Origin: Falsiroseomonas frigidaquae
GTDB lineage: Bacteria > Pseudomonadota > Alphaproteobacteria > Acetobacterales > Acetobacteraceae
DNA length: 64,000 nt
Reading direction: 5' to 3'
Assembly (NCBI RefSeq): GCF_012163145.1
Contig: NZ_JAAVTX010000009.1
Location: 124,001-188,000, forward strand
Program-made: the position numbers and the translations under genes
Notes under the pieces: model-generated
Database searches by the model: none
Seen by the model: the letters and a program-made list of their open reading frames with translations, nothing else
Told to the model about the DNA's origin: nothing
In this document: one piece after another, positions 29,348-46,258 of the stretch
How positions within the stretch are numbered: position 1 is the stretch's first letter
Layout: each line of letters starts with the position of its first letter

Positions 29348-29393
29348 TGGTGCTGCTGGACAGGATTGAACTGTCGACCTCTCCCTTACCAAG
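29348..29393. repeat. attL: 46-bp copy of tRNA-Thr 3' end
   Basis: TGGTGCTGCTGG through CCCTTACCAAG is identical to 46213-46258, which is part of the intact tRNA gene. It spans the tRNA from the anticodon stem (position ~30) to CCA but is not followed by the 5' half, so it is the displaced original 3' end left by integration. Confidence 0.9.
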
Positions 29394-29508
29394 CGGCGAT
29401 CCGGTCCGGACACTACGCGCCATGGTGCGACACCAACGCTGAAAATCAGTATCTTAGAGCTCATGAACGCGACACTACCCGTCACCAGACGTCATGGCTA
29501 CGCTACGA

Positions 29509-29555
29509 GATGAGTCCGCTGCGAGTCCGCGGGCTCGCCGGGGCATGAGTCCGCA
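29509..29555. repeat. Left arm repeats (GATGAGTCCGC family), candidate integrase arm sites
   Basis: GATGAGTCCGC followed by GCGAGTCCGC at 29509-29530, then ATGAGTCCGCA 35 bp further on (29545). The same arrangement with the same 35-bp spacing recurs at 46131-46177 near the other end. Repeats flanking the core of a tyrosine-recombinase attP are usually arm-type binding sites. Confidence 0.65.
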
Positions 29556-29589
29556 GACGATTTTGATGGGGGGGGAACCTATATGTTCT

Positions 29590-29700
29590 GGTGTTCTAGG
29601 TGTTCTAGGTGTTCCTTCCTCTATATCTATAGACATATCAGTGTGTTGCGGCCGATCGTTTTGGAACACCGGCGATTTTGCAAGGTGTTCCAGGTGTTCC
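29590..29700. repeat. Iteron-like array of GGTGTTCYA in front of the integrase gene
   Basis: Three tandem copies at exact 9-bp period start at 29590, 29599 and 29608; one inverted copy (GGAACACC) lies at 29663-29670; two more direct copies at 9-bp period start at 29684 and 29693. They occupy the region just before the integrase start at 29717. Candidate binding sites for integrase, excisionase or an integrase repressor. Confidence 0.7.
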
Positions 29701-29716
29701 AGTCGGTGCCGGTATC

Positions 29717-43558: not shown

Positions 43559-45432
43559 CGGCGCCCGAACGCGACGATGATCCGAAGCCGGAGCGCAAGC
43601 CGCGGGAGGCGATTCGCCGCGCGGTGCGGGGCGCGCCATCGGCGACGCCGGCCGCGCCGCCGGAGCCGAAGGTGCCGGATCGCACCGATGGACGATTTGA
43701 GATGAACCGGGTCCGCGGCTTGTTCTGCAAGCGGGAGGAAAAGACGCCGCTTTGGCTCTCCGCGCCCTTCCGCGTGCTGGCCGAGACGCGGGATCCGGAA
43801 AGCCGTGCCTGGGGTCTGCTGCTGCATTTCCGCAACCGGGATGGGGTGGTGCATGAACTCGCCATCCCGAAGCGTCTGATCGCTGGCGAGGGTGGGGAAG
43901 TCCGGCAGCTCCTGGCAGACCATGGCCTTGACCTGGCCAGCAGTCAGGCCGCGCGGCAGGCCTTCATGGATTACCTGTGCAGCATCCAGACGCGGGAACG
44001 GGCGGTCAGCGTGCCGCGGATCGGATGGCACCGCGTCGCGGATCGGCTGGTGTTCGTGCTGCCGGATGGGGTGATCGGTGAGGCATCGGAGCGCGTCATC
44101 CTGCAATCGGCGGAGCCGCAGCCGCACGACTTCCGCAAAGGCGGATCGCTGGATGAGTGGAAGGCGAAGGTGGCTACGCTGTGCATCGGCAATTCGCGCC
44201 TGATGCTGGCCGCCAGCACCGCCCTGGCCGGCCCGCTGCTCGAGCTGCTGGGCGAAGAAGGAGGCGGTGTCCACTATGTCGGCAATTCATCGGTCGGTAA
44301 GAGCGCCGCCGGTCGCATTGCCGCCAGCGTGTGGGGCGGCGGGCCTCGGGAAGGCGCGAAGGATTTCTGGCGTTCCTGGAATGGCACCGCGAACGGGCAG
44401 GAAGGTGCGGCCGCGCTGCACAACGACGCCCTCATGATCCTGGATGAGATGAACCAGGCGCGGGCCCAGGAAGTTGGTGATGTGGTCTTCATGATTGCGA
44501 ATGGCGCCGGCAAGCTGCGCGCGCAGCGCAGCGGCTTCATGCGCCAGCAAGCCCGGTTTCGGCTGCTCGTCTTCTCCACCGGAGAAGGCACCTTGGAAGC
44601 CAAGATGGCGGAGGCTGGCCAGCGCGTGATGGCCGGCCAGGAAGTGCGCCTCGTCCACGTGCCGGCCGATGCTGGGGCTGGGCATGGCCTCTTTGAGGAT
44701 TTGCAGGGCTGCGCCGATGGCGGCGCCCTTGCGAAGCGCATTGAGGCAGCCACAAGGCATCACTACGGCGTCGCCGCGCGGGCCTTCCTCGTGTGGCTTA
44801 CGGCGCAGATGGCGGTCGATGAGCTGGCCCTGCGGCGGCGCCTCGCTGGGCTGGTCGATGCGCTGTTTCAGCGGTTGGTGCCTGCGGGCGCCGATGGCCA
44901 GGTTCAGCGCATGGCGCGGCGCTTTGCCCTGATCGCCGCGGCGGGCGAACTGGCGGCCGAAGCGGGCATAGTGCCCTGGCCCGCCACCGATGCCGAATGC
45001 GCGGCGCGCCTCTGCCTCGAGGCGGCGCTATCGGAACGCGGCACGGTGGGGGCGCGGGAGGATGCGGCGGCGGTGCGTAAGCTCCGCGACTTCCTGATTT
45101 CGAACGGCCCTTCCCGGTTCGAGATTTGGGCCGATCGGAACAGCCGCCGGCAGGATTCGGAAGATCGCGGCCATGATGGGCAGGATGAACAGCCCGGCAG
45201 GCCGCAGGGGCGCAGCAAAGAGCCAGGCGAGGGCGGCGGATTGCCGCCAGGCATCTACAAGGTTCGCGATCGCCGCCTTGGCCTGGTGGTGCCGGTGGCG
45301 GCCATCGTCGGCAAGCCGCCCACCTATCGGCCGCGCCTGGACTTTGATGGCATCACCCGCGCCACCATAGACCGCGACTTCCCACGCCTGATGGCCAAGG
45401 CCATCGACAAGGCGCTGAAGGAGGCCACGTGA
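43555..45432 (+). CDS. DUF927-family helicase
   Basis: A 625-residue protein. Walker A VGNSSVGKSAAG lies near 243-253 and Walker B ALMILDEMNQA near 292; residues 1-50 are a charged linker and the last ~110 residues include a polar linker (about 530-560). DUF927 ATPases accompany Toprim primases in phage and satellite replicons, where the pair acts as a primase-helicase. The ATG overlaps the primase stop by 4 bp, and an origin-like repeat region follows. Confidence 0.85.
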   Translation: MTAPERDDDPKPERKPREAIRRAVRGAPSATPAAPPEPKVPDRTDGRFEMNRVRGLFCKREEKTPLWLSAPFRVLAETRDPESRAWGLLLHFRNRDGVVHELAIPKRLIAGEGGEVRQLLADHGLDLASSQAARQAFMDYLCSIQTRERAVSVPRIGWHRVADRLVFVLPDGVIGEASERVILQSAEPQPHDFRKGGSLDEWKAKVATLCIGNSRLMLAASTALAGPLLELLGEEGGGVHYVGNSSVGKSAAGRIAASVWGGGPREGAKDFWRSWNGTANGQEGAAALHNDALMILDEMNQARAQEVGDVVFMIANGAGKLRAQRSGFMRQQARFRLLVFSTGEGTLEAKMAEAGQRVMAGQEVRLVHVPADAGAGHGLFEDLQGCADGGALAKRIEAATRHHYGVAARAFLVWLTAQMAVDELALRRRLAGLVDALFQRLVPAGADGQVQRMARRFALIAAAGELAAEAGIVPWPATDAECAARLCLEAALSERGTVGAREDAAAVRKLRDFLISNGPSRFEIWADRNSRRQDSEDRGHDGQDEQPGRPQGRSKEPGEGGGLPPGIYKVRDRRLGLVVPVAAIVGKPPTYRPRLDFDGITRATIDRDFPRLMAKAIDKALKEAT

Positions 45433-45586
45433 CGCCGCGCAACATTGTGTCGCGCAACAAAATTACGCGGGTCCTTCCCAGGCCTTTCCTGGGACACGGG
45501 TAATTTGGACCCCGGTTAGAGGCAGAAATTTTAAGCTAAAACAATGGTCTAGGTTGTTATTGCTGTTGCTGTTTGGGGTGTGGATC
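45433..45586. other. Candidate replication origin or packaging-related region
   Basis: This non-coding gap holds CGCGCAACA twice (45436-45444 and 45451-45459), nested inverted repeats AATTAC...GTAATT (45461/45500) and TCCCAGG...CCTGGGA (45476-45482/45488-45494), then an AT-rich stretch from about 45520 to 45580. It sits between the helicase and the terminase small subunit. Short repeats beside an AT-rich tract are typical of satellite origins. Confidence 0.5.
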
Positions 45587-46135
45587 ATGATCCTGCTGAA
45601 CAAGTCTGAGCTGGCTGCGAAGCTGGGCGTCTCGCTTTCCACGCTCTCCACCTGGCTTGAGAGATGGCCTGATTTCCCGGCGGTACGGCGCGGCGCCAAC
45701 GGAACAGAGTGGCAGTTCAACGCTGATGCTGTTGCCGCCTTCCTCCGAGGCAAGCGCGATGCACGGGCTGCGGCAGATGCTGCAGCCTATGCCGAATCTG
45801 CCCCCCTGCTGGTTGGTGCCTTTGAAGATGAGGCAGCCCCGACCAGCGCTTCAGAGCGGCTTAAGCTGGCGCAGGTTCGCATCCTCGAAGATCGGTTGGC
45901 TCGTGAGCGCGGCTTCTACGTCGTGAAGGCGGACATGGTCGCGGTGCTGGCCGAGGCCCTGCCGGTGATCCAACGCAGCCTTCAGGCCATCCCGGCGGGA
46001 CTGGTGCGGCGCCACAAACTGCCAGACCCGGTTGCAGCCGACCTTGAGGCGCTGATCGCTGCCGAGATCCACATGATGACACGCCGCCTGGCAGCGGCCG
46101 GCCTGATGCCAGCGGCGGAAGTTGATGAAGGATGA
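45587..46135 (+). CDS. Terminase small subunit, Nu1 (DUF1441) type
   Basis: A 182-residue protein. The N-terminal winged helix-turn-helix LLNKSELAAKLGVSLSTLSTWLERWPDFPAVRRG...WQFNADAVAAFL and the helical region ERLKLAQVRILEDRLARERGFYVVKADMVAVLAEALPVI match Nu1-type small subunits that recognise the packaging site. No large subunit is encoded anywhere in the element. In PICIs a lone TerS redirects the helper's packaging motor to satellite DNA. The start at 45587 omits a hydrophobic extension that does not fit the family. Confidence 0.82.
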   Translation: MILLNKSELAAKLGVSLSTLSTWLERWPDFPAVRRGANGTEWQFNADAVAAFLRGKRDARAAADAAAYAESAPLLVGAFEDEAAPTSASERLKLAQVRILEDRLARERGFYVVKADMVAVLAEALPVIQRSLQAIPAGLVRRHKLPDPVAADLEALIAAEIHMMTRRLAAAGLMPAAEVDEG

Positions 46136-46177
46136 GTCCGCCGCGAGTCCGCACCATCAAAGGGTGATGAGTCCGCA
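46131..46177. repeat. Right arm repeats (GATGAGTCCGC family)
   Basis: GATGAGTCCGC followed by GCGAGTCCGC at 46131-46152 and GATGAGTCCGCA at 46166-46177. Apart from one mismatch they match the left copies at 29509-29555, with the same 35-bp spacing and orientation. They lie 36 bp from the core at 46213. The left end of the repeat overlaps the last codons of the terminase gene. Confidence 0.65.
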
Positions 46178-46212
46178 AGGCTTCTGGCGCAGGCTAACCG
46201 GCTGAAAAGATG

Positions 46213-46258
46213 TGGTGCTGCTGGACAGGATTGAACTGTCGACCTCTCCCTTACCAAG
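46213..46258. repeat. attR: 46-bp core inside tRNA-Thr
   Basis: Identical to 29348-29393. The boundary with the host 5' half lies at 46258, after CCAAG; beyond it the two copies diverge. Distance between copies defines an element of 16,865 bp. Confidence 0.9.

Follow-up and report, generated by a model that had tools for sequence, protein, structure and literature searches.

A tail-gene-carrying element at a tRNA-Thr gene of Falsiroseomonas frigidaquae and its probable place among phage satellites

We analyzed a 64,000-nucleotide stretch of the Falsiroseomonas frigidaquae genome (hereafter the window), taken from contig NZ_JAAVTX010000009.1, which is contig C19 in our numbering of this 6.08-Mb genome. 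At positions 29348-46258, the window contains a 16.9-kb integrated element that encodes a tape measure protein (TMP), a tail assembly chaperone (TAC), a baseplate hub, a scaffold-like protein and a small terminase (TerS). It is probably a satellite that carries tail genes and represents a new lineage. The original prediction, made from the window alone, had called the element a helper-dependent satellite of an Acetobacteraceae-type bacterium. The satellite part of that claim is borne out by precise termini, by similar layouts in other hosts and tRNA genes, and by the lack of a head, packaging-motor or lysis gene set in our searches; the dependence on a helper is taken up below as a proposal.

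A tail module between precise attachment sites

The element is delimited by an exact 46-bp direct repeat, the right copy of which is the 3′ part of a tRNA-Thr(GGT) gene. Integrated between precise attachment (att) sites and equipped with its own integrase, it has the basic features of a satellite. We scanned its 20 predicted proteins against Pfam and PHROGs, and found a tail module (31151-36023) comprising the TMP, the scaffold-like protein o3, the hub and the TAC, with the TerS close to the right end:

29348-29393, no strand: attL, 46-bp direct repeat, exact copy of 46213-46258
29717-31030, plus: tyrosine integrase with Arm-DNA-bind_3 domain (PF13356, 2.9e-15; phrog_1, 2.1e-49)
31151-32755, plus: TMP, 534 aa (phrog_8125, 2.4e-28; 80% identity in F. 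tokyonensis)
32785-33129, plus: o3, scaffold-like, short homologue of a protein of the resident prophage C9a (phrog_6382, 1e-9)
33144-33803, plus: o4, no family match, conserved in F. tokyonensis (54%)
33816-34337, plus: o5, conserved in F. tokyonensis (66%, sequence comparison)
34307-35491, plus: baseplate hub of the Mu gpP/gp44 type (phrog_177, 4.6e-101; PF22255, PF21683, PF21929); start possibly 34334
35685-36023, plus: TAC (PF10109, 3e-10; phrog_166, 1.2e-15); start possibly 35691
45587-46135, plus: TerS, Nu1/phrog_57 type (phrog_57, 4.5e-15)
46213-46258, no strand: attR, within tRNA-Thr(GGT) at 46213-46287, minus strand (repeat comparison and tRNA search)

The Pfam Nu1 score of the TerS (23.4) lies below the cut-off of 30. 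o3 also weakly matches head-protease families (E-values 0.0055 and 0.013). o4 is faintly similar (15-25%) to proteins of other satellites, and BLAST clustering groups it with its F. tokyonensis counterpart only. A structure prediction for o5 from a two-row alignment was uninformative (mean pLDDT 36.6) and was not used.

Neither Pfam nor PHROGs gave a match at E ≤ 1 to large terminase (TerL), portal, capsid, sheath or tube families among the 20 proteins, and lysis labels came up only among weak secondary hits, those of the TMP to “lytic tail protein” (4.9e-5) and to “tail fiber protein/lysozyme” (5.6e-5). A second half of a prophage hidden beside the element, holding the missing head and packaging genes, was ruled out by a search of contig C19, which contains no match to PF05876 (TerL) or to PF05136 or PF06074 (portal).

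Much of the original prediction stands after these scans: the exact repeats in tRNA-Thr, the integrase at the left end and the lone Nu1-type TerS at the right end are all present, as are the divergent XRE/early-operon switch and the operon ending in primase and helicase listed further below. Its list of missing genes (portal, capsid, TerL, tube, sheath and lysis) holds literally, but the absence of structural genes that it implied does not, given the TMP, hub, TAC and o3. The element has the integrase, divergent regulator, primase/replicase and lone TerS of a phage-inducible chromosomal island (PICI); because it encodes structural genes, whose lack is a defining feature of PICIs, the label “PICI-like” is unsupported in its strict sense. 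The gene set is indeed unlike the textbook ones, owing to a tail module that the prediction had overlooked. The element also lacks the capsid and packaging genes of its own that would make it a capsid-forming PICI (cf-PICI), and the full set of TerL, portal, major capsid protein (MCP), tail and lysis genes that a complete prophage would hold between its att sites. Its virion gene set is incomplete, without TerL, portal or capsid, as in satellites generally, and the combination of TMP, TAC and hub without tube and sheath is that of the Vibrio satellites with chimeric tails.

A sister element retains the tail genes

F. tokyonensis K-20 (G015), a member of the same genus, carries a syntenic element at the same tRNA-Thr gene, with its integrase on contig C23 (NZ_JAFNJS010000003). 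The hub is 76% identical between the two elements, and the helicase 91% over 550 aa. Relatives of the window helicase occur in five of 16 genomes of the genus (the window's included), and outside the window genome only that of F. tokyonensis is close (90%). The F. tokyonensis TerS was called by BLAST to the window TerS (47% over 71 aa) and to prophage TerS; a phrog_57 search of that genome (E ≤ 0.001) did not list it.

We calculated the ratio of nonsynonymous to synonymous substitution (dN/dS) by the NG86 method from these two sequences, with dS values of 0.49-0.93 that are partly saturated. The calculation covers 13 of the 20 genes and leaves out the two cargo genes, a small minus-strand gene, xre, o12, o14 and terS. 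Within the tail module the ratios are 0.17 (tmp), 0.42 (o3), 0.60 (o4), 0.30 (o5), 0.25 (hub) and 0.42 (tac); elsewhere they are 0.14 (int), 0.25 (o13), 0.15 (alpA), 0.34 (o16), 0.42 (o17), 0.11 (pri) and 0.07 (hel). The tail genes contain no internal stops, and one apparent stop in o17 is that gene's own end. By this two-sequence measure, the sister element keeps its tail module under purifying selection.

The window copy itself is altered next to its terS. In F. tokyonensis, the helicase gene is followed by a minor-tail gene (phrog_1924, 278 aa, 3.5e-56) and then by terS, and an array of GGTGTTC motifs lies between helicase and minor-tail gene. In the window this array is missing, and helicase residues 1-550 run in frame into the last 78 residues of the minor-tail protein (45193-45432). 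The fusion may be a real deletion or an assembly error. Because of the fusion and the missing second array we make no claim of activity for the window copy, which is itself doubtfully active.

A fusion deletion of this kind fits a decaying or defective prophage that has lost its head, packaging-motor, most tail and lysis genes, and in which the tail genes are leftovers. We consider this unlikely. The tail genes are under constraint, and a similar reduced gene set lies between intact repeats both in F. tokyonensis and in an Acidocella metagenome-assembled genome (MAG), the latter without a hub and with TAC before TMP. Moreover, the slot holds other genes in related elements: the cargo slot of F. 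tokyonensis carries an AlbA_2/HATPase protein, and that of Acetobacteraceae KSS8 carries PDC-M04A/DUF3800.

Related elements in other hosts

A scan of genome contigs with an integrase alignment identified 69 loci, 29 of which also contain XRE, primase or helicase genes (queries: window proteins and relatives). Gene calls were made for 29 of the 69 loci, and in the relatives readable in this way the slot between int and XRE is mostly filled by other genes. TMP matches were found at L133 (F. tokyonensis), L134 (a MAG), L139 (KSS8), L152 (Gluconobacter vitians), L159 (the Acidocella MAG) and L163 (a 4.6-kb MAG contig). The bounded 14.6-kb Acidocella element reads int-TAC-TMP-protease-AlpA-pri-hel-gpZ-TerS, with unknown genes between. 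PHROG families were matched by 19 of 20 proteins from relatives, including TMP, TAC, gpZ, protease, decoration and MCP-protease proteins; the exception is a 386-aa protein of G211. Across 299 genomes of the host family, relatives of the TMP occur in 50, of the hub in 66 and of the helicase in 74, only part of which were classified as satellite or prophage.

Direct repeats of 45-59 bp comparable to those of the window bound six relatives, and a 19-bp repeat a seventh. These are F. tokyonensis (46 bp, three copies, each like the window's at 42 of 46 bases), Acidocella (46 bp), KSS8 (48 bp, tRNA-Ala), C9b (46 bp, tRNA-Arg), G247 (45 bp, tRNA-Thr TGT), G211 (59 bp, tRNA-Ala) and G138 (19 bp, at a tRNA-Ala). 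On the Acidocella contig ARAGORN found no tRNA, and the repeat reads like a tRNA end by eye; for L140, no terminal repeat was found in the stretches searched. The third att copy in F. tokyonensis bounds a 7.7-kb stretch (L014, C23 ~492003-499808) in which an integrase fragment and a resolvase were recognized by eye, a tandem pile-up at the tRNA-Thr gene.

We compared proteins from six prophage regions by tblastn, with unnamed queries assigned by position, to 14 elements chosen for integrase, helicase or TMP matches, six of which are cut by contig or stretch ends. Matches were found for TMP (10 elements), TAC (6), gpZ (6), TerS (5), hub (2), protease (2), decoration (1) and MCP-like protein (1), and none of the 14 elements matched the prophage TerL, portal, sheath, tube or wedge queries. 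Among the eight elements with both ends found, five have a TMP match and none matches TerL, portal, sheath or tube. The 69 integrase loci likewise gave no match to the TerL, portal or MCP of two resident prophages of the window genome or to the sheath or tube of one of these, C9a, a further finding against prophage decay. Since this search also missed the known TMPs of L133, L134 and L159, distant types could escape it. Within that modest sensitivity, the relatives do not appear as deletion forms of one full prophage.

The right arm does recall complete phages. The order from pri to gpZ and TerS is that of the left part of such phages, in which TerL and portal come next (viral contig L238). 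In L253 the order is pri-TerS-TerL and gpZ lies farther along, and prophage C9a has gpZ-TerS-TerL. A search for related primases in viral contigs gave 290 stretches, of which 80 were kept; two of the 43 examined show primase, TerS, TerL and portal together, and none of the 43 has an integrase like the window's. Because complete phages use related primases beside TerS and TerL, the arm resembles a phage cut off after TerS, and origin by deletion from a phage stays alive as history, not as the present state.

The same survey bears on another reading, an integrative element of the cargo type that replicates without being mobilized by phages, its TerS and tail genes hitch-hiking. Two relatives have such a content: C9b, a second family element in the window genome (L016, G000:C9:526141-539643), and G247 both have int-XRE-pri-hel and no match to the prophage queries. 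On the other side, a TerS match occurs in five of the 14 elements, the gene lies beside the att end in the elements of F. tokyonensis, Acidocella and the window, and the distant relative AH14b is reported to be packaged with a phage (PMC4936722). We judge a cargo element very unlikely.

Three further loci carry other virion genes. L124 (G138, C7 ~85-96 kb) is a different, 10.4-kb element in which the TMP gene adjoins a fusion of major capsid and protease genes (phrog_4523, 3.7e-115), with what looks by eye like an integrase gene at the tRNA end. L130 (G031) is satellite-like and encodes TerS, gpZ and a head decoration protein that shares 63% identity with its C9a counterpart. L202, an 11.3-kb IMG/VR contig, combines int and AlpA with a capsid-protease fusion resembling the G138 one, and is a possible capsid-forming satellite.

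Satellite tape measure proteins are dispersed among other TMPs

We built a tree of 35 TMPs, ten of them from satellites, from 46 sequences after leaving out ten duplicates and the fragment L081. The satellite label requires six changes on this tree, at least four of them forced by well-supported branches, and six of 500 shuffles were as low. The window and F. tokyonensis TMPs group with those of satellites G138 and G120 and with that of G214, which has a TerL nearby. The satellite TMPs of G. vitians and G138 pair, on starred branches, with TMPs of G040 and G214 that have a TerL ~10 kb away; two satellite rows are on long branches. For 14 of the 25 non-satellite rows, the contig that holds the TMP also has a PF05876 match, at a distance of 9-13 kb. 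Because the satellite TMPs are dispersed among other TMPs, the tree suggests several captures, and their placement in different parts of it also disfavors prophage decay. A rule that satellite TMPs are shorter than phage TMPs was rejected, with lengths of 509-918 aa.

A candidate helper and a model for tail remodeling

A GpA-type TerL with a lambda-type portal occurs twice in the window genome, both times on contig C9 and never on C19. The F. tokyonensis K-20 genome likewise contains several TerL genes of this type. One of these regions, C9a (~433.5-480 kb of C9), looks like a near-complete contractile-tailed prophage. We located genes for gpZ, TerS, TerL, portal, protease, a 192-aa acidic protein, decoration, MCP, sheath, tube, TAC, TMP (645 aa) and hub, nine of them by PHROGs, TerL and portal by family search, and TMP and hub by BLAST. 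The window and C9a TMPs are ~28% identical, with the window protein 111 aa shorter, and the hubs are ~33% identical. The 192-aa protein is of the same family as o3 (phrog_6382, 1.2e-30), and from its position between protease and decoration genes is a likely scaffold. BLAST aligns it with o3 at 47% identity (E = 4e-6), or at 41% over 69 aa (E = 6e-12) without composition correction; the masked tblastn of prophage proteins against the 14 elements did not find this match.

We propose that the element, integrated in the chromosome, would be induced and excise by its own integrase, and that its DNA would be copied by its own primase-helicase. The helper would be a myophage like C9a, whose TerL is of the GpA type, head of the lambda type and contractile tail of the Mu type, and the element's TerS would steer packaging during helper virion production. 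The satellite TMP, TAC and hub may nucleate a tail that uses the helper's tube, sheath, wedges and fibers, and the satellite TMP may set the length of this chimeric tail (534 aa, as against 645 aa in C9a). The scaffold-like o3 might act on capsid assembly. That the satellite would rebuild the helper tail around its own ruler and hub seems to us fairly probable by analogy, because its trio is the same as that of the phage-inducible chromosomal island-like elements (PLEs) of Vibrio cholerae.

More tentatively, and quite possibly, satellites of this Acetobacteraceae type re-dimension virions in general: independently of the Vibrio PLEs, they may have repeatedly captured genes that set sizes or start assembly, namely those for the tape measure and its chaperone, the baseplate hub, a scaffold or head protease, a tail-completion protein and the small terminase, with the TMP taken up several times and the bulk parts left to the helper.

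The tail genes could instead be a weapon, with decoy TMP, TAC and hub rendering an infecting phage's tails dead and no chimeric virions formed. Neighboring cargo is defense-like in two relatives, namely the F. tokyonensis and KSS8 proteins named above, and the Tai systems of PICIs (PMC11364771) and Rta of PLEs (PMC12987554) are reported to block tail assembly. Yet the tested precedent with the same trio, the PLE, uses TMP and hub as virion parts according to the same PLE report. A decoy reduced to essentials could do without the complete trio, the scaffold-like protein and the TerS, and we regard a decoy as improbable.

Relation to known satellites

PICIs are characterized by their size, int, divergent regulators, AlpA, primase-replicase, lone TerS and variable cargo. 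The window element resembles both staphylococcal (SaPI) and Gram-negative PICIs in all of these, but carries several virion structural genes, and no PICI-specific gene has been demonstrated in it. With P4-like satellites it shares integration at a tRNA end, AlpA and primase/helicase replication; unlike in P4, its replicase is split in two and of the DUF927 type, and no Psu, Delta or Sid name came up in the family scans. cf-PICIs supply capsids. Like them, the window element carries virion genes, but these are tail initiation parts, with no capsid, portal or TerL found; some cf-PICIs are said to encode a putative tmp (PMC12987554).

Chimeric tail assembly has been reported for one satellite family, the PLEs, by mass spectrometry, Western blot, transmission electron microscopy and deletions (Nature 2026, PMC12987554). 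According to that report, PLE11 encodes a TMP, TAC and hub that are 20%, 20% and 41% identical to those of phage ICP1, and its virions contain its own TMP and hub instead of ICP1's. Its tails are 10 nm shorter, with a TMP differing by 95 aa, and loss of tmp reduces transduction by 96% (PLE1), 99% (PLE4) and ~99.9% (PLE11). Because the legend of Extended Data Fig. 10 notes putative tmp genes in PLE-like elements and cf-PICIs, the idea of a satellite tmp is not new. Judged by described gene content and not by sequence, the window element resembles a PLE in being integrated, in having TMP, TAC and hub with no sheath, tube or capsid found, and in having a TMP shorter than that of its contractile-tailed candidate helper. 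It differs in its DUF927/Toprim replication, TerS and scaffold-like protein, and in its temperate candidate helper, as against the lytic ICP1.

AH14b (KU708005; 16.8 kb) is described as a putative satellite of the Pseudomonas prophage AH14a, mitomycin-inducible and packaged with this putative helper (PMC4936722). It shares with the window element int, an annotated AlpA and primase and a helicase homologue (34%), although BLAST similarity is limited to int (27%) and this helicase. It has one tail-assembly gene (TAPI) and no annotated TMP, TAC, hub or TerS, with many of its genes hypothetical.

In articles open in PMC we found no report of satellites in Acetobacteraceae. The window element and its kin add a second lineage, from another bacterial class, that holds the same trio under selection next to a replication module of another kind and whose tmp was apparently captured several times. 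Tail piracy thus looks recurrent, which suggests that it arose more than once. What a satellite gains from bringing its own tail ruler is a question that can be put in hosts with resident candidate helpers, and satellite searches that exclude elements with structural genes may miss those that carry tails.

Several observations weigh against a tail-remodeling satellite. C9a as the helper is a guess: its identities to the window proteins resemble those between PLE and ICP1 and are no proof. The window copy may be impaired by the fusion deletion and the loss of its second array, the Acidocella element has no recognized hub or XRE, and TMP was matched in just six of the 69 integrase loci. A label change on the TMP tree can stand for either a gain or a loss, and among the 25 non-satellite rows, 11 lack a TerL match nearby and are hence unclassified. 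The wide range of TMP lengths gives no general shortening, the G. vitians satellite TMP carries an endolysin-like part (phrog_873, 1.9e-36), and a scan of viral contigs with a two-row TMP alignment gave 46 pattern matches and no relatives. Finally, because AH14b particles are described as tail-less and of one capsid size (PMC4936722), AH14b lends no support to tail or head remodeling.

Regulation, replication and repeat arrays

The remaining features of the element are as follows:

29590-29699, no strand: iteron-type repeat array GGTGTTC, six copies, upstream of int (motif scan; relatives are laid out alike, some of them with another motif)
36253-37333, plus: cargo slot with a 64-aa gene and an open reading frame (ORF) with hydrophobic segments, up to 289 aa (ORFs; no family)
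37859-38107, minus: XRE repressor-like regulator (HTH_3, PF01381, 3.9e-7)
38241-41274, plus: early operon o12, o13, o14 (ORFs, BLAST clustering)
41381-41629, plus: AlpA/HTH_17 regulator (PF12728, 7.8e-8; phrog_66, 7.6e-8)
41626-42518, plus: o16 and o17, no family match (dN/dS as above)
42515-43558, plus: Toprim primase, DUF7146/Toprim_3 (family scan)
43555-45432, plus: DUF927 helicase, the last part (residues ~547-624) being the fused minor-tail C-terminus (phrog_1924, 5.2e-10)

A small minus-strand gene lies between the cargo slot and XRE. Apart from a weak mad1-like match at 37553-37825 (E = 0.0052), PADLOC and Pfam gave no meaning for the cargo slot or the unknown early genes. At gathering scores, Rfam matched the tRNA and nothing else.

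The GGTGTTC array spans ~103 bp with the motif in both orientations. The left array has six copies in the window and in F. tokyonensis, seven in G247 and five in G211; KSS8 has four copies that are more widely spread and fail our cluster rule. Other family members use the motif AGGTGTA, some at both ends, and C9b uses GTGACAT. A scan of 23 elements for these three motifs, in which some loci end before the place of the second array, found a cluster also toward the other end in ten (F. tokyonensis, G247, G211, L144, L148, L155, L165, L170, L199 and KSS8), the left array only in eight (window, C9b, L136, L140, L141, L147, L153 and L162), and no array by the cluster rule in five (Acidocella, L151, L154, L160 and L197). 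In a shared-word test of both element ends (1.7 kb after hel), nine of 19 elements beat all random segments and the other ten did not. These ten include the window, where 42 of 279 controls scored as high, C9b (115 of 253), KSS8 and G211; some loci end before the tested place, and the second arrays of KSS8 and G211 lie further out.

Pairs of elements that share an array motif show closer similarity in int, in alpA, in pri and in each part of hel, and little of it in xre, which singles out no one protein that the arrays would follow. The paired arrays could be integrase arm sites or a two-part replication origin; the 1.7 kb between array and att in F. tokyonensis speaks rather for the origin. 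They recall ori and crr of P4, which form a two-part replication origin.

Between the cargo slot and XRE, seven perfect copies of the 8-bp repeat CGCCAGCG lie at 37432-37487; TRF found none in six relatives scanned. o12 (38241-39065) has a Tat-signal-like start by eye. In many family members, one or more proteins of this kind (also by eye) come after the early promoter region and might be exported by the satellite. Outside the element, KaiC-like, KaiB-like and sensor-kinase-like genes (by eye) stand in a row at 19850-24628 of the window, and three genes like these border the outer att copy of F. tokyonensis.

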